Positions 29,216 to 35,253 of a stretch of 64,000 nucleotides of DNA are shown here, piece after piece. Numbering within the stretch: position 1 is the first letter of the stretch; every line of letters begins with the position of its first letter. The stretch spans positions 310,001-374,000 of the forward strand of contig NZ_CP037858.1 in assembly GCF_006974125.1 (NCBI RefSeq), given 5' to 3'. A program made the position numbers and the translations under genes. The stretch comes from Stenotrophomonas maltophilia (GTDB taxonomy: Bacteria; Pseudomonadota; Gammaproteobacteria; Xanthomonadales; Xanthomonadaceae). Under the pieces are notes generated by a model that saw only the letters and a list, made by a program, of their open reading frames with translations, made no database searches and was not told the origin of the DNA.

Positions 29216-29241
29216 CCCGGCTATACCAAGGTATAGCCGGG
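29216..29241. terminator. Strong hairpin between lipoprotein gene and magnesium locus
   Basis: CCCGGCTATACC-AA-GGTATAGCCGGG is a perfect 12-bp stem with a two-base loop, 34 bases after the lipoprotein stop. No T-run follows, so it may be a factor-dependent terminator or a symmetric protein site upstream of the magnesium leader. Confidence 0.5.
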
Positions 29242-29340
29242 CTAACCCACGGGCCTCTAGGACTGCCCCATTCAGGGGCGGACAATAGCGCCACTGGCCA
29301 GGGCAATCCTGGCCGGCACCCTCCCCTCATGGAGACGCAG

Positions 29341-29430
29341 ATGGACCCCGACCCTGCCGGGCGCACCGCGCCCCGGATGCCCGCGTGTTGCCTGTTCCTG
29401 GCGCCTGCCCGCCGGTCCCTGCCTGCCTGA
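29341..29430 (+). CDS. Candidate MgtL-like leader peptide
   Basis: This 29-codon open frame starts at ATG 29341 behind GGAG (29331-29334). It begins MDPDP, the same first five residues as the Salmonella MgtL leader, and is rich in proline throughout. In enterobacteria, Asp/Pro codons at the start of MgtL destabilise ribosomes when magnesium is low, and the aborted translation lets mgtA be transcribed. Position upstream of mgtA, length and sequence all fit such a sensor. After the first residues the peptide differs from MgtL. It is followed within six bases by a hairpin that covers the next ribosome binding site. Confidence 0.6.
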   Translation: MDPDPAGRTAPRMPACCLFLAPARRSLPA

Positions 29431-29435
29431 GTGAC

Positions 29436-29472
29436 GGGGGACCGCCAGGTGCCGCCTGCCTGGAGATCCCCC
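29436..29472 (+). promoter_or_regulatory. Leader hairpin covering the next ribosome binding site
   Basis: GGGGGA (29436-29441) can pair with TCCCCC (29467-29472), with an inner CCAGG/CCTGG stem (29445-29449 and 29459-29463). The GGAG ribosome binding site of the 29474 gene falls in the folded region. It starts six bases after the leader-peptide stop, so ribosomes on the leader would melt or permit it. Confidence 0.5.
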
Positions 29473-29473
29473 C

Positions 29474-29773
29474 ATGTCCTACAAGATCCTCTACATCACC
29501 CTGCGCCGCCTGATCGGCGAGCGCGATGTTGCCGCGCTGCGCAGCCAGCTGCTGCAGCACGGCCCGGTCACGTTTGCCCGTTCGCTGTCGCTCGGTTCGC
29601 CACGCGTGGTGGCCGACGCGCTGTCGCTGCTGCCGATCAGCGAGCGCATCAATGTGCTGCGCCACCTGCCCTATCCCCTGCGCGATGCGATGAAGCCGCT
29701 GTGCATCGGTGGCAGCCAGCGGCTGCACATGCAGCCGTGGTCACCGGCGGTGCTTGCGATGCGCCACGCCTGA
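29474..29773 (+). CDS. Unknown 99-residue protein in magnesium operon
   Basis: This small basic soluble protein starts at ATG 29474. The stretch VVADALSLLPISERINVLRHLPYPLRDAM resembles the helical repeats of the MgtE N-terminal (magnesium-sensing) domain, in which pairs of helices carry L-x-x-L-P-x-x-x-R patterns. The match is by eye and short. It lies between the leader and mgtA, 63 bases before the mgtA start, and its translation should be limited by the hairpin at 29436-29472. It could be a small regulator of MgtA or MgtC, comparable in position, though not in sequence, to small proteins of enterobacterial mgt operons. Confidence 0.65.
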   Translation: MSYKILYITLRRLIGERDVAALRSQLLQHGPVTFARSLSLGSPRVVADALSLLPISERINVLRHLPYPLRDAMKPLCIGGSQRLHMQPWSPAVLAMRHA

Positions 29774-29836: not shown

Positions 29837-32596
29837 ATGAGCCTGCTCAACGCCTGGTTCAATGCCTTCCTGCGCAGCCGTCGCGCAGGCAACCTGTTCC
29901 GCCGCCGTGCGATGCCCGAAGCCGGCTTTGGCCCGGGCAGCGCCGAAGCGGCGCCGTTCGCGCTCACCACCGGCCTGGTCACCCTTGCCCAGCAGGAGGA
30001 AGCCGAACTGCTGGCCACGCTGGAGTCGCATGCCGATGGCCTCAGCCCGCATGAGGCCGGGGAGCGGCTGGCCACGCTCGGCCCCAACGAGGTGGATCAC
30101 GAAAAGCCGCTGCCGTGGTGGCGGCACCTGTGGCAGTGCTACCGCAATCCGTTCAACCTGCTGCTGACCGTGCTTGCGGCGGTTTCCTGGCTGACCGAGG
30201 ACATCAAGGCCACCGTGGTGATCGGTGCAATGGTGCTGCTGTCCACGCTGATCCGCTTCGTTCAGGAGGGTCGTTCGAACCGTGCGGCCGAGCGGCTGAA
30301 GGCACTGGTCGGCAACACCGCACGCGTGCTGCGCCGCAATCCCGGTACCGAGGCCGCCGACGTGGCCGACCAGTACTTCGGCGCGCACCTGCACAGCCGT
30401 CGCCCGGCACGCCTGCTCGACCTGCCGATCCGCGAGCTGGTGCCCGGTGACCATATCGTGCTGTCGGCCGGCGACATGATTCCGGCCGACTGCCGCGTGC
30501 TGACCGCCAAGGACCTGTTCGTGGCGCAGGCCGCGATGACCGGCGAGTCGCTGCCGGTAGAGAAGTTCGCGCACCCCGGCGACGGCCTGGCCGGCCTGCT
30601 GGAACAGCACAACCTGCTGTTCATGGGTACCAATGTGGTGTCCGGCACGGCCACCGCCGTGGTGCTGGCCACCGGCAACCGCACCTACTTCGGCACGTTG
30701 GCCCAGCGCAGCACCGCCACCGACCGTGCGCCGACCGCATTCCAGGCCGGCGTCAACAGTGTCAGCTGGCTGCTGATCCGCTTCGCGCTGGTGATGGTGC
30801 CATTCGTGCTGCTGATCAACGGCTGGACCAAGGGTGACTGGACCGAGGCATTCCTGTTCGCGCTGTCGGTGGCGGTGGGCCTGACGCCGGAGATGCTGCC
30901 GATGATCGTCACCTCCACCCTGGCCAAGGGTGCGGTGCTGCTGTCGCGGCGCAAGGTGATCGTCAAGCGCCTGGATGCGATCCAGAACTTCGGCGCCATG
31001 GAAGTGCTGTGCACCGACAAGACCGGCACGCTCACCCAGGACAAGATCGCGCTGGAGCGGCACACCGATGTGTTCGGTCACGATTCGGAAGACGTGCTGA
31101 CGTTCGCTTACCTCAACAGCCACTTCCAGACCGGGCTGATCAACCTGCTGGACCGCGCGGTGCTGGAGCACGTGGAGCTGCAGAGCTCGCTGCGGCTGTC
31201 GCAGGACTACCACAAGGTGGATGAGATCCCGTTCGATTTCGAGCGCCGCCGCATGTCGGTGGTGGTGTCCGAGCGCGAGGATCACCACGAGCTGATCTGC
31301 AAGGGCGCGGTCGAAGAAATGCTGGCAGTCTGCAGCACCGTGCGCGAGAACGGCCACGACATGCCACTGGACGAGCACCGCCTGGCCCGCGTGCGGCAGA
31401 CCACCGAGGAACTGAACGAACAGGGCCTGCGCGTGGTGGCGGTGGCGATGAAGGAGACCGCCGCCAGCCAGACCACCTATTCGCAGGCCGACGAGTGCGG
31501 CCTGACCCTGGTCGGCTACGTGGCCTTCCTGGACCCGCCGAAGGAATCGGCTGCGCAGGCGTTGCAGGCGCTGGCTGCACATGGCGTGGAGGTGAAGGTG
31601 TTCACCGGTGACAACGAACTGGTGACCGCCCGTGTCTGCGCGCAGGTCGGACTGGACGCCGACACCATCCTGACCGGCCCGCAGATCGAGCGCATGGATG
31701 ACGGCGCGCTGTCGCGTGCGCTGCACCACCATCGCGTGTTCGCCCGCCTGACGCCGCTGCACAAGGAACGCCTGGTGCGTGAGCTGCGCGCACAGGGCAA
31801 GGTGGTCGGTTTCCTTGGTGATGGCATCAACGATGCCCCGGCACTGCGTGCGGCCGACATCGGCATCAGCGTGGACAGCGCCGTGGACATCGCCAAGGAG
31901 GCCGCCGACATCATCCTGCTGGAAAAGAACCTGATGGTGCTGGAAGAAGGCGTCATCCAGGGCCGGCGCACGTTCAACAACATGCTGAAGTACATCCGCA
32001 TGACCGCCAGTTCCAACTTCGGCAATGTGTTCTCGGTACTGGTGGCCTCGGCCTTCCTGCCGTTCCTGCCGATGCTTCCTCTGCAGCTGCTGGTGCAGAA
32101 CCTGCTGTACGACATCTCGCAGATCGCCATTCCGTTCGACAACGTGGACGAGGAACTGGTGCGCAAGCCGTTGAAGTGGAACCCGGCGGACATCGGACGC
32201 TTCATGGTGTTCTTCGGGCCGATCAGCTCGATCTTCGACCTGACCTGTTTCGCGTTGATGTGGTACGTGTTCGATGCGCGCACCGCCACCGACCAGAGCC
32301 TGTTCCAGTCCGGCTGGTTCGTGGTCGGCCTGCTGACCCAGACCCTGATCGTGCACATGATCCGTACGCCGAAGGTACCGTTCCTGCAGAGCATCGCGGC
32401 GCCGCCACTGCTGCTGATGACCGGCCTGATCATGGCCATCGGCGTGGCCCTGCCGATGAGCCCGTTGGCCGGCTACTTCAAGCTGCAGGCCCTGCCGGCC
32501 GGCTACTGGCCGTTCCTGGTGGCGATCCTGTTCGGCTATGCGGTGCTGACCACTGCGCTGAAGCGGTTCTACATCCGTCGTTACGGCTGGCAGTAA
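29837..32596 (+). CDS. mgtA: Magnesium-translocating P-type ATPase
   Basis: This 919-residue inner-membrane P3B-type ATPase imports magnesium. The phosphorylation site is Asp394 in CTDKTGTLTQD; the dephosphorylation motif TGES, the hinge GDGINDAPALRAADIGI and the N-terminal cation-ATPase region are complete, with about ten membrane helices. ATG 29837 has a strong ribosome binding site (GAGGAGA); the upstream extension is not conserved. It is the central gene of an operon with the unknown 99-residue protein before it and MgtC after it. Expression is probably set by the leader at 29341-29472 in response to magnesium. Confidence 0.96.
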   Translation: MSLLNAWFNAFLRSRRAGNLFRRRAMPEAGFGPGSAEAAPFALTTGLVTLAQQEEAELLATLESHADGLSPHEAGERLATLGPNEVDHEKPLPWWRHLWQCYRNPFNLLLTVLAAVSWLTEDIKATVVIGAMVLLSTLIRFVQEGRSNRAAERLKALVGNTARVLRRNPGTEAADVADQYFGAHLHSRRPARLLDLPIRELVPGDHIVLSAGDMIPADCRVLTAKDLFVAQAAMTGESLPVEKFAHPGDGLAGLLEQHNLLFMGTNVVSGTATAVVLATGNRTYFGTLAQRSTATDRAPTAFQAGVNSVSWLLIRFALVMVPFVLLINGWTKGDWTEAFLFALSVAVGLTPEMLPMIVTSTLAKGAVLLSRRKVIVKRLDAIQNFGAMEVLCTDKTGTLTQDKIALERHTDVFGHDSEDVLTFAYLNSHFQTGLINLLDRAVLEHVELQSSLRLSQDYHKVDEIPFDFERRRMSVVVSEREDHHELICKGAVEEMLAVCSTVRENGHDMPLDEHRLARVRQTTEELNEQGLRVVAVAMKETAASQTTYSQADECGLTLVGYVAFLDPPKESAAQALQALAAHGVEVKVFTGDNELVTARVCAQVGLDADTILTGPQIERMDDGALSRALHHHRVFARLTPLHKERLVRELRAQGKVVGFLGDGINDAPALRAADIGISVDSAVDIAKEAADIILLEKNLMVLEEGVIQGRRTFNNMLKYIRMTASSNFGNVFSVLVASAFLPFLPMLPLQLLVQNLLYDISQIAIPFDNVDEELVRKPLKWNPADIGRFMVFFGPISSIFDLTCFALMWYVFDARTATDQSLFQSGWFVVGLLTQTLIVHMIRTPKVPFLQSIAAPPLLLMTGLIMAIGVALPMSPLAGYFKLQALPAGYWPFLVAILFGYAVLTTALKRFYIRRYGWQ

Positions 32597-32627: not shown

Positions 32628-33365
32628 ATGGACATCAATCCCAACCTGCCGGCGTTCAACGCCGGCGCCACGCTCAGCTCGCTGATCAGCCTGTCGGTGG
32701 CGTTCGTGCTGGGCACGGTCATCGGCCTGGAGCGGCAGCTGCGCCAGCGCACCGCCGGCCTGCGCACCAATACGCTGGTGGCCGTGGGAGCGGCGGTGTT
32801 TGTCGACCTCGCGGTGCGCTTCCATGACCTGTACGGTGGCCCGCCATCGCCGCTGCACGTGGTGGCCTATGTGATCTCCGGCGTCGGCTTTCTCGGCGCC
32901 GGCGCGATCATGAAGGACGGGGCCCAGGTATCCGGCTTGAACACGGCGGCCACTCTGTGGGGATCGGCGGCGGTGGGTGCATGTGCCGGTATCAAGCTGC
33001 TGCCGGAAGCGGTGCTGGCCGCCATCTTCGTGCTGGCAGCCAACACCCTGCTGCGGCCGGTGGTGAACCGCATCCAGCGGCAACCGCTGCCGGAGGCGTT
33101 CAGCGAGGCGACCTATGCGATCAACGTGGTCTGCCAGCGCGAGCAGCAGGCCGAGGTGCTGGACCAGTTGTTGCTGCTGCTTGAGCAGGCACAGTACCCG
33201 GTGCGCGCGGTGGACCAGCGCCCGTTCGGCGAACGCGATGTGGAGATCGAAGCCGTGTTGTATGCCACCACGGTGGATGCCGGTGAACTGGATGCGGTAC
33301 TGGCGACGCTGGCGACCACACCCGGCGTACTGCAGGGGTTCTGGAACGCCAGCCTGGAGGAGTAG
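32628..33365 (+). CDS. mgtC: MgtC/SapB family protein
   Basis: This 245-residue inner-membrane protein has the family's conserved helices (SVAFVLGTVIGLERQLRQRTAGLRTNTLVAVG and VISGVGFLGAGAIMKDG) and a C-terminal ACT-like domain. MgtC in Salmonella restrains the F1Fo ATPase and supports survival in low magnesium and inside macrophages. ATG 32628 lies 31 bases after mgtA, with GGGAG before it. Its place after mgtA mirrors the mgtCB pairing of enterobacteria in reverse order. The stop is embedded in a SMAG repeat. Confidence 0.92.
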   Translation: MDINPNLPAFNAGATLSSLISLSVAFVLGTVIGLERQLRQRTAGLRTNTLVAVGAAVFVDLAVRFHDLYGGPPSPLHVVAYVISGVGFLGAGAIMKDGAQVSGLNTAATLWGSAAVGACAGIKLLPEAVLAAIFVLAANTLLRPVVNRIQRQPLPEAFSEATYAINVVCQREQQAEVLDQLLLLLEQAQYPVRAVDQRPFGERDVEIEAVLYATTVDAGELDAVLATLATTPGVLQGFWNASLEE

Positions 33366-33563: not shown

Positions 33564-34619
33564 ATGCCATCGCTGTCGCCTCGCCGCCCGCTGGTGCTGC
33601 TGGCCCTGATCGTCGTGATGGCGGCGATCTTCCTGATCGATACCGTCACCGACTACGCGGTCGCGGCAGCCTGCTTCTACGCCGCGGTCATCCTCGCCGC
33701 AGCGCGCGTGCTCAGCGCGCGCGGGTTGATCACGCTTGCCCTGGCCTGCATCGCGCTGACCGGGCTGAGCTTCTTCCTCACCCACTTCGGCACCTACCGC
33801 ATCGGCCTGGTCAACTCGGTGATCGGCATGCTGGTGATCGGCATCACCACCTACCTTGCCCTGAACATGGAAGCGGCCAAGGCCGCCGTGCAGGAGGCAC
33901 AGGGCCGCCTGCTGCGGGTGGCGCGCGCTTCCACCGTGGGCGAGCTCACCACCTCCATCGCGCATGAAGTGAATCAGCCGCTGGCGGCCATCGCCAGCAG
34001 CGCGGAGGCCTGCCAACGCTGGTTGGCCCAGGACCCACCGAACGTGGACAAGGCCCGCCAGACCGTGGCCCGCATCCTGGCCGACGCGCACCGCGCCGGT
34101 GACGTGATCGCCCGCATCCGCGGCCTGACCCAGGGCGCGGCACCAGAACGACGGGCCTTCGACCTGAACCAGGCGGTGGAGGAAATGCTGGCGCTGTCGC
34201 GCAGCGAGCTGGACCAGCATGGCGTGGCCGTGGCGCTGCTGCTGGACGCCGACCTGCCGCCGGTGCAGGCCGACCGCGTGCAGGTTCAGCAGGTGATCGG
34301 CAATCTGATCCTCAATGCGGTGGACGCAATGGAAGCCGTGCCGCCAGCCGACCGGCGCCTTTCGCTGCTGACCCGGCGTGACGGCCAGCGGGTCAGTCTC
34401 AGCGTGCGCGACCGGGGCGTGGGCCTGCCCGCCGATCATCCCGAGCGAGTATTCGATGCCTTCTGGACCACCAAGTCACACGGGCTGGGACTGGGCCTCA
34501 GCCTGAGCCGTTCGATGATCGAGGCCAACGACGGCCAGATCCGCGCCGAACGACCGGCAGGCGGCGGCGCCTGCTTCGTCTTCGACCTGCCCATCGCCAC
34601 GGACGTTCAACATGCGTAA
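33564..34619 (+). CDS. Membrane sensor histidine kinase (FixL/DctB-like core)
   Basis: This 351-residue kinase has four to five N-terminal membrane helices and no large periplasmic domain, so it probably senses a signal in or through the membrane. The phospho-His is in TTSIAHEVNQPLAAIASSAEA, the class seen in FixL and related kinases. ATPase motifs include NLILNAVDAM, RDRGVGL and SHGLGLGLSLS. The 3' end overlaps the response-regulator gene by eight bases, so they are a coupled pair. No target operon is adjacent and the signal is unknown. Confidence 0.92.
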   Translation: MPSLSPRRPLVLLALIVVMAAIFLIDTVTDYAVAAACFYAAVILAAARVLSARGLITLALACIALTGLSFFLTHFGTYRIGLVNSVIGMLVIGITTYLALNMEAAKAAVQEAQGRLLRVARASTVGELTTSIAHEVNQPLAAIASSAEACQRWLAQDPPNVDKARQTVARILADAHRAGDVIARIRGLTQGAAPERRAFDLNQAVEEMLALSRSELDQHGVAVALLLDADLPPVQADRVQVQQVIGNLILNAVDAMEAVPPADRRLSLLTRRDGQRVSLSVRDRGVGLPADHPERVFDAFWTTKSHGLGLGLSLSRSMIEANDGQIRAERPAGGGACFVFDLPIATDVQHA

Positions 34620-35253
34620 GCCCCCTGCCCCTGCCATCGATCCAGCACCCATCGTCTACGTGATCGACGACGACCCGTCGGTGCGCGCCGCGCTGGAGGA
34701 CCTGCTGGCCTCGATGGGCCTGCAGGTGCGCGCCTTCGCTTCCACCCAGGCGTTCCTCGAACACGAACTGGAAGATGCACCGGCCTGCCTGGTGCTGGAC
34801 GTGCGCATGCCAGGCCAGAGCGGCCTCGAGTTCCATCGCACGATGGGCAGCCACGGCCTGCAGCTGCCGGTGGTGTTCATCACCGGCCACGGTGACATCG
34901 CCATGGGCGTCAACGCGATCAAGGACGGCGCCATCGAGTTCCTGACCAAGCCCTTCCGCGACCAGGAACTGCTGGATGCCATCCACAAGGGCATCGAGAT
35001 CGACCGCCAGCGCCGCCGCGACGGCGAGGCACTCGGCGCGCTGCAGCTGCGTTGGGACACCCTCAACGCCGGCGAACGCGAGGTGGTCGACGGCGTGGTA
35101 CGCGGCCGCCTCAACAAGCAGATCGCCGGCGACCTCGGGGTGAGCGAGATCACGGTGAAGGTGCGCCGCGCGCAGGTGATGCGCAAGATGGGCGCGCGCA
35201 CCCTGGTCGACCTGGTGCGGATGTATGACCGCCTGCAGGCGGGCAGCGCTTGA
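34612..35253 (+). CDS. FixJ-family response regulator
   Basis: This 213-residue regulator has an N-terminal receiver (YVIDDDPSVRAALEDLL; phospho-Asp in CLVLDVRMPGQSGLE; FITGHGDIAMGVNAIKDGA with the conserved FLTKPF) and a LuxR-type C-terminal helix-turn-helix (LNAGEREVVDGVVRGRLNKQIA). The FixJ-type phrase GDIAMGVNAIK is very typical. ATG 34612 lies inside the 3' end of the kinase gene. It is likely activated only by that kinase. No DNA target can be inferred from the window. Confidence 0.93.
   Translation: MRKPPAPAIDPAPIVYVIDDDPSVRAALEDLLASMGLQVRAFASTQAFLEHELEDAPACLVLDVRMPGQSGLEFHRTMGSHGLQLPVVFITGHGDIAMGVNAIKDGAIEFLTKPFRDQELLDAIHKGIEIDRQRRRDGEALGALQLRWDTLNAGEREVVDGVVRGRLNKQIAGDLGVSEITVKVRRAQVMRKMGARTLVDLVRMYDRLQAGSA

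Follow-up and report, generated by a model that had tools for sequence, protein, structure and literature searches.

A 29-codon open reading frame (ORF) upstream of mgtA in Stenotrophomonas maltophilia is under selection as protein over its first five codons, Met-Asp-Pro-Asp-Pro (MDPDP). It is probably an Mg2+-sensitive leader resembling MgtL, working by intrinsic ribosome destabilization (IRD) in a different RNA setting and raising expression at low Mg2+. This reading is based on sequence comparison and on analogy with the enterobacterial system. Between leader and mgtA lies a small gene whose ribosome-binding site is predicted to be covered by a hairpin.

Results

Leader, operon and upstream elements

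The leader occupies positions 29341 to 29430 of the forward strand of the window, that is, the whole stretch of 64,000 nucleotides analyzed here. It was read directly as 29 codons and a stop, with the translation MDPDPAGRTAPRMPACCLFLAPARRSLPA, and its start is conserved in relatives; the sequence-only reading had placed an MDPDP frame of this length at the same position. The ribosome-binding site of its own claimed in that reading was found as GGAG at 29331 to 29334 on the same strand, likewise read directly and ending 6 nt 5′ of the ATG. GGAG is present in most aligned relatives and weak in L074, L075 and L078. Locus L075 comes from a record titled Bacillus subtilis SK7B5 that carries a Stenotrophomonas-type mgtA locus and is probably mislabelled or contaminated. 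An alternative in-frame ATG at 29329, four codons 5′ of 29341, is absent in relatives such as L025 and L028, so that 29341 is the likelier leader start. As in MgtL, therefore, a short upstream ORF (uORF) with its own ribosome-binding site lies in the mgtA leader. The mgtA start at 29837 is 496 bases 3′ of the leader, a distance put earlier at about 500.

Following the leader and the small gene, the forward strand carries mgtA, encoding a Mg2+-translocating P-type ATPase (29837 to 32596; TIGR01524, 1337.1 bits, cut-off 610.75), and 3′ of it an mgtC-family gene (32628 to 33365; PF02308, E 4.5e-35). A histidine kinase gene and a LuxR-type response regulator gene (HisKA/HATPase_c; Response_reg/GerE) follow mgtC at 33564 to 35253 and look syntenic, by eye, in g34, the sister genus.

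Upstream of the leader, the palindrome TATACCAAGGTATA at 29222 to 29235 is a putative operator and fits TATACCNANGTATA in 30 aligned loci of the genus Stenotrophomonas. As raw match counts, the best matches upstream of the leader reach 10 to 13 of 14 positions in Pseudoxanthomonas, g34 and L087, and just 7 to 9 of 14 in L082, L091, L093, L095 and L100. Two exact sites occur in the whole genome, against 0 for the reversed control; the other exact TATACCNANGTATA (G000:C1:2208115-2208128, L198) stands upstream of a frame that by eye resembles a TonB-dependent receptor. That the histidine kinase/LuxR-type regulator pair binds the palindrome TATACCNNGGTATA would be a guess. GACAAT at 29281 to 29286 (forward strand), of which ACAAT is kept across 30 aligned loci, may be a −10 element; a sigma-70 consensus scan recognized no promoter. 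An Rfam scan of the window gave no family at gathering score; two low-scoring matches (E ≤ 1) were unrelated elements.

Selection on Met-Asp-Pro-Asp-Pro

Conservation was assessed by a DNA search of 101 genomes (the genome itself, 60 of the same genus and 40 others of the order). A long DNA match was found in 33 of the 61 genus genomes, and all 33 leaders were read (30 aligned and 3 more). Of these, 32 begin MDPDP, and L024 begins MNPDP; an additional in-frame Asp-Pro turns the start into MDPDPDP in two of the 32 (L194, L195). After codon 8 the leader varies, and in L004 and L017 the loss of one base shifts the frame late in the peptide.

A set of 51 leaders yielded 44 distinct starts. None of these departs from Pro 3, Asp 4 or Pro 5, and at residue 2 they carry Asp (42) or Asn (2); silent variation occurs at all four codons 2-5. 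Changes were then counted by parsimony on the small-gene tree with 53 leaders, namely the 51 together with L082 and L087; near-copies were included, but parsimony counts changes rather than sequences. Third-position changes predominate in the MDPDP codons (29341 to 29355, forward strand): 19 third-position versus 4 first- or second-position changes were counted in codons 2-5, versus 12 and 46, respectively, in codons 6-9 (Fisher p 3.6e-7). To judge from these substitutions, only the MDPxP part of the leader is under selection, which acts at the level of translation. The conservation of ATG, Asp-Pro codons and frame over silent changes, which the sequence-only reading had named as its check, is thus borne out across relatives by the 19 versus 4 changes. 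For the Asp-Pro codons it holds in full only for the prolines: Pro 3 and Pro 5 are never replaced, while Asp 2 is replaced in two leaders (both Asn) and Asp 4 in two (one Gly, one Ala). The absence of a strict need for Asp 2 and Asp 4 counts against the MgtL-like reading.

The small gene between leader and mgtA

The sequence-only reading took no account of the gene that separates the leader from mgtA, nor of the hairpin over its ribosome-binding site. This gene (29474 to 29773, forward strand) encodes 99 amino acids and is related by profile A1 to MgtE_N-like small proteins. Profile A1 was made from 11 small proteins of leader-bearing loci, and the association of leader and small gene was therefore not found blind. 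When 247 family genomes were searched with it, 20 passed E ≤ 0.001. Of these, 18 were strong matches (E ≤ 2e-27) and the remaining two stood at about 4e-4; all 18 strong genomes carry the leader (17 MDPDP, 1 MNPDP). Similarly, in 98 mgtA loci, 80 from named records and 18 from the MgtA search, the small gene stands upstream in 29, each time with an MDPxP leader (27 MDPDP, 1 MDPGP, 1 MDPAP).

Two of five small proteins tested matched the MgtE N domain (PF03448; E 6.6e-5 and 0.0058). Neither reached the curated cut-off of 25.9 bits: the best of the five scored 23.8 bits, and three gave no match to this domain. The likeness to MgtE is thus weak and confined to two members, and the small proteins are without the transporter part. 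The 99-residue protein of the window gave no Pfam match at E ≤ 0.001; those of L091 and L095 also match FliG_M (E 0.0011) and DUF5086 (E 0.0015), respectively. These small proteins, encoded beside mgtA and mgtC, belong to an undescribed family.

Predicted hairpin at the small-gene start

A hairpin directly after the leader had been noted before, and in the predicted fold it begins 5 nt past the stop codon. It extends from 29436 to 29472 (forward strand) and would cover the ribosome-binding site of the small gene. Such a hairpin is predicted before the small gene in Stenotrophomonas, Pseudoxanthomonas, g34 and Delftia/Comamonas, whose sequences share little here, and also in L082 and L087. Compared with shuffled sequences, the median z was −2.22 and 39 of 43 distinct segments fell below −1. 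For 50 of the 51 leaders the model puts the cost of opening the small gene's site at 3 kcal/mol or more. Covariation is slight: in two alignments, just 2 pairs out of 6 and 2 out of 14, respectively, have changed on both sides. The existence of a hairpin over this ribosome-binding site is well supported by prediction.

The effect of ribosome position on the hairpin was modelled as well. When the leader tail is freed, as after drop-off at DPDP, 25 of 51 leaders show a drop in opening cost of 1 kcal/mol or more, the window leader among them (from 7.7 to 5.5 kcal/mol); this anti-sequestor gives no help in 20 of the 51, raises the cost by at least 1 kcal/mol in 6, and helps 2 of 12 in g34. With a ribosome placed at the leader stop, a drop of 1 kcal/mol or more is obtained for 34 of the 51, and the cost rises in 3. 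One universal switch was rejected, because for each of the two ribosome positions, DPDP and stop, there are lineages in which the hairpin is not opened.

Within the leader itself, fold prediction gave a possible hairpin GGGCGC-ACC-GCGCCC in codons 7-11 (29359 to 29373, forward strand). A fold of codons 6-13 of −5 kcal/mol or better was obtained for 42 of 44 distinct leaders, and since its median z against shuffles is only −1.06, this hairpin is weak.

Occurrence in other lineages

Of 369 genomes across the class, 5 contained the pattern GGAG-N(5-9)-ATG-GAY-CCN-GAY-CCN, and two of the 5 belong to this genus. This is more than expected by chance, the reversed control matching in 2 of 369. Of the three matches outside the genus, L169 and L170 do not stand ahead of Mg2+ genes as judged by eye. 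At about position 1512 of L169 a seven-codon uORF, MDPDPTI, precedes a frame resembling class I fructose-bisphosphate aldolase (by eye). In the family, 26 of 297 genomes matched (9 of this genus, 2 of g29, 11 of g34, 1 of g52 and 3 of g44), with 9 matches for the reversed control. Those in g44 look like chance. The g52 match (L148, also L203) is a uORF MDPDPGRLRL two genes before mgtE; it occurs in just one of 8 g52 genomes and could be a chance match.

Three Pseudoxanthomonas loci have leaders beginning MDPDPDGR or MDPDPHGR. The g34 leaders begin MDPDPH or MDPDPY and are followed by the small gene. Leader and small gene occur in 12 of 17 g34 genomes, the other 5 giving no match to the leader pattern or the small-gene profile. 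The long frame after the small gene is mgtC in the two loci tested (PF02308), and frames of equal length stand at equal offset in seven further loci. The MgtA matches at E ≤ 1e-100 included none from g34. The placement upstream of mgtA given by the sequence-only reading thus holds in the window, but the leader is not bound to mgtA, as it precedes mgtC in g34 where no mgtA was found at that threshold. In G304 and G562 of g34 the place of mgtC behind the small gene is taken by an HlyD-type gene (the one tested being in L158 of G562) and, by eye, further RND-type frames. In two g34 species with small genomes (L199, L200), leader and small gene are followed immediately by an HlyD/RND/outer-membrane-factor set, of which HlyD was recognized by Pfam and the other members by eye.

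Delftia and Comamonas carry an MDPDP leader before mgtA, and the leaders of Variovorax YR216 (L082) and a Comamonas MAG (L087) read MDPGP and MDPAP. Upstream of mgtA, 36 of the 98 loci have a leader-type uORF; the opposite strand has one in none of the 98. The 36 comprise 27 MDPDP leaders, 7 enterobacterial ones (5 Serratia, Klebsiella, Raoultella) and 2 weak ones (L105, L121). These last two are Pro-rich uORFs without the small gene, MPDPEHPPPA at −91 from mgtA in Pigmentiphaga (L105) and MNPDPQPRKPPS at −139 in Castellaniella (L121). Among the same 98 loci no leader uORF was found upstream of mgtA in 5 Yersinia, Janthinobacterium, Cupriavidus and many others. One genome of this genus (G012, L045) has an mgtA that is 71% identical, in a different neighborhood and without the leader. 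Such leaderless mgtA copies (G012/L045 and the 5 Yersinia loci) count against the MgtL-like reading.

Comparison with MgtL and related leaders

The leader was compared with MgtL and related systems, with the literature cited from excerpts. The sequence-only reading was mistaken in taking the first five residues to be those of Salmonella MgtL. In the excerpt of PMC10117744, MgtL of Salmonella SL1344 is MDPEPTPLPRWRIFLFR, starting MDPEP; E. coli K-12 MgtL (17 residues) begins MEPDP. MDPDP was read in the mgtA leaders of 5 Serratia, 1 Klebsiella and 1 Raoultella (variants MDPDPT). The likeness to MgtL consists in a short ORF in the 5′ leader of mgtA with acidic-Pro-acidic-Pro straight after the start Met, kept as protein here. 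The remainder of the peptide and the RNA had been said to differ, and this was confirmed. MgtL continues TPLPR..., whereas the Stenotrophomonas leader continues AGRTAP..., a tail that is unrelated and variable even within the genus. The enterobacterial Mg2+ leader RNA (RF01056) gave no match in the window. It matches the mgtA leaders of E. coli (125.8 bits) and Klebsiella (117.5), and no match was obtained for the Serratia L127, Delftia, Pseudoxanthomonas or g34 loci submitted. Because tail and RNA element both differ, the leader is not MgtL proper. A further difference is that the small gene and the hairpin over its ribosome-binding site intervene here before mgtA, and that in g34 the leader precedes mgtC where mgtA was not found.

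In E. coli MgtL, ribosomes drop off at the EPDP motif when Mg2+ is low, and an mgtA reporter lost its expression once Glu 2 and Asp 4 were replaced (excerpt of PMC11282234). The selected acidic and Pro residues of the present leader match in kind and position those causing IRD there (PMC11282234, same excerpt). According to the part of PMC11552253 used, inefficient elongation of mgtL at low Mg2+ raises mgtA; Rho is involved at Salmonella mgtA, and that part reports no evidence of Rho for E. coli mgtA. It also describes CorL, the corA leader of Salmonella and E. coli, which is likewise a uORF before a Mg2+ transporter but has a single conserved Pro and belongs to another gene. MgtL has been given a proline-detector role as well (excerpt of PMC10117744). 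A literature search, with preprints and most subscription papers outside its scope, found no earlier report of such a leader outside Enterobacteria.

Discussion

Proposed mechanism and alternatives

In the mechanism proposed here, the early Asp and Pro codons would slow or destabilize the ribosome, more so at low Mg2+, and the progress of the ribosome in the leader would set the downstream RNA fold and hence the expression of the small MgtE_N-like gene, mgtA and mgtC. The likeliest local switch would be the hairpin hiding the ribosome-binding site of the small gene. Drop-off at DPDP would free the leader tail CGGTCCC (about 29415-29421), which could pair with the 5′ arm of the hairpin, GGGGACCG; this pairing would expose the ribosome-binding site and turn the operon on. 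Dependence on Mg2+ is suggested by analogy with E. coli MgtL. We also infer the low-Mg2+-on direction, the alternative pairing, and the route to mgtA, which would be either translation of the small gene or Rho.

One alternative is translational coupling of the opposite sign. Ribosomes finishing the leader would melt the hairpin and allow the small gene to be translated, and drop-off at low Mg2+ would shut this gene, whose product may restrain MgtA. The distance from leader stop to small-gene start is short, 36-62 nt in most lineages, and in the model a ribosome at the stop makes the site cheaper to open, by 1 kcal/mol or more, for 34 of the 51 leaders, a larger number than for the freed tail (25 of 51), which would favor this sign. 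In g34, however, the stop is 37-68 nt upstream of the start and a ribosome there helps just 2 of 12, and the known MgtL has the low-Mg2+-on sign in the excerpts of PMC11282234 and PMC11552253; we consider the opposite sign unlikely. Slightly less likely still is a Rho-type attenuator as at Salmonella mgtA, where leader translation would expose or hide a Rho site controlling transcription into mgtA. Such control is published for Salmonella (PMC11552253, in the part used), the leader tail has more C than G in 52 of 53 leaders, and a consensus search gave no intrinsic terminator; RF01056, however, was not found in the window, and the small gene also has more C than G on average (0.391 versus 0.305), so that the C bias of the tail is not special.

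The strict conservation of the prolines bears on an attenuator in which invariant Pro codons would sense the supply of prolyl-tRNA instead of Mg2+. Pro 3 and Pro 5 are kept more strictly than Asp 2 and Asp 4, and the proline-detector role mentioned for MgtL (excerpt of PMC10117744) would fit. Yet the selected part has just two Pro codons, its Asp codons are nearly always kept, and the genes downstream are Mg2+ genes, making such sensing improbable. Least probable is conservation of DNA or RNA sequence instead of the peptide, or a frame that is open by chance. Within Stenotrophomonas the leader is largely alike at the DNA level, but it recurs in other families with different flanks, and an RNA-only cause of the conserved codons 2-5 was rejected on the 19 third-position against 4 first- or second-position changes.

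Origin and significance

In an MgtA tree of 63 rows, of which L100 and L134 are partial, Stenotrophomonas and Pseudoxanthomonas form one clade (support 100); next to it stand L087, the Comamonas MAG, and L086, an Acidovorax MAG without leader match (support 99). The Enterobacteria and the Delftia/Comamonas group branch elsewhere. The leader requires 4 gains or losses on this tree, with labels predating the reading of L082 (MDPGP) and L087 (MDPAP). Common descent of the Comamonadaceae and Xanthomonadaceae leaders, or transfer between the two families, is favored by the shared small gene and by the palindrome of L087 (13 of 14).

A broader and more tentative idea, which we hold to be possible though doubtful, is that of a modular Asp-Pro cassette in Xanthomonadaceae and Comamonadaceae. 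Operator, MDPxP leader and hairpin over the start of the small MgtE_N-like gene would have been kept through changes of cargo, the cargo being mgtA-mgtC, mgtC alone or RND-type pump genes. Mg2+ would be sensed by ribosome destabilization, acting mainly via translation of the small gene, whose product would be a soluble Mg2+-sensing transporter partner. Such a design would be distinct from the Rho-type enterobacterial leader and either independent of it or an early split.

If the MgtL-like reading is confirmed, Mg2+ sensing by ribosome destabilization would be recurrent in several proteobacterial families rather than an enterobacterial speciality, with a different downstream RNA logic. The natural variants MNPDP, MDPGP, MDPAP and MDPDPDP would make the residue requirement testable, Pro being invariant and Asp replaceable. 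An undescribed small protein family would also be placed beside MgtA and MgtC.
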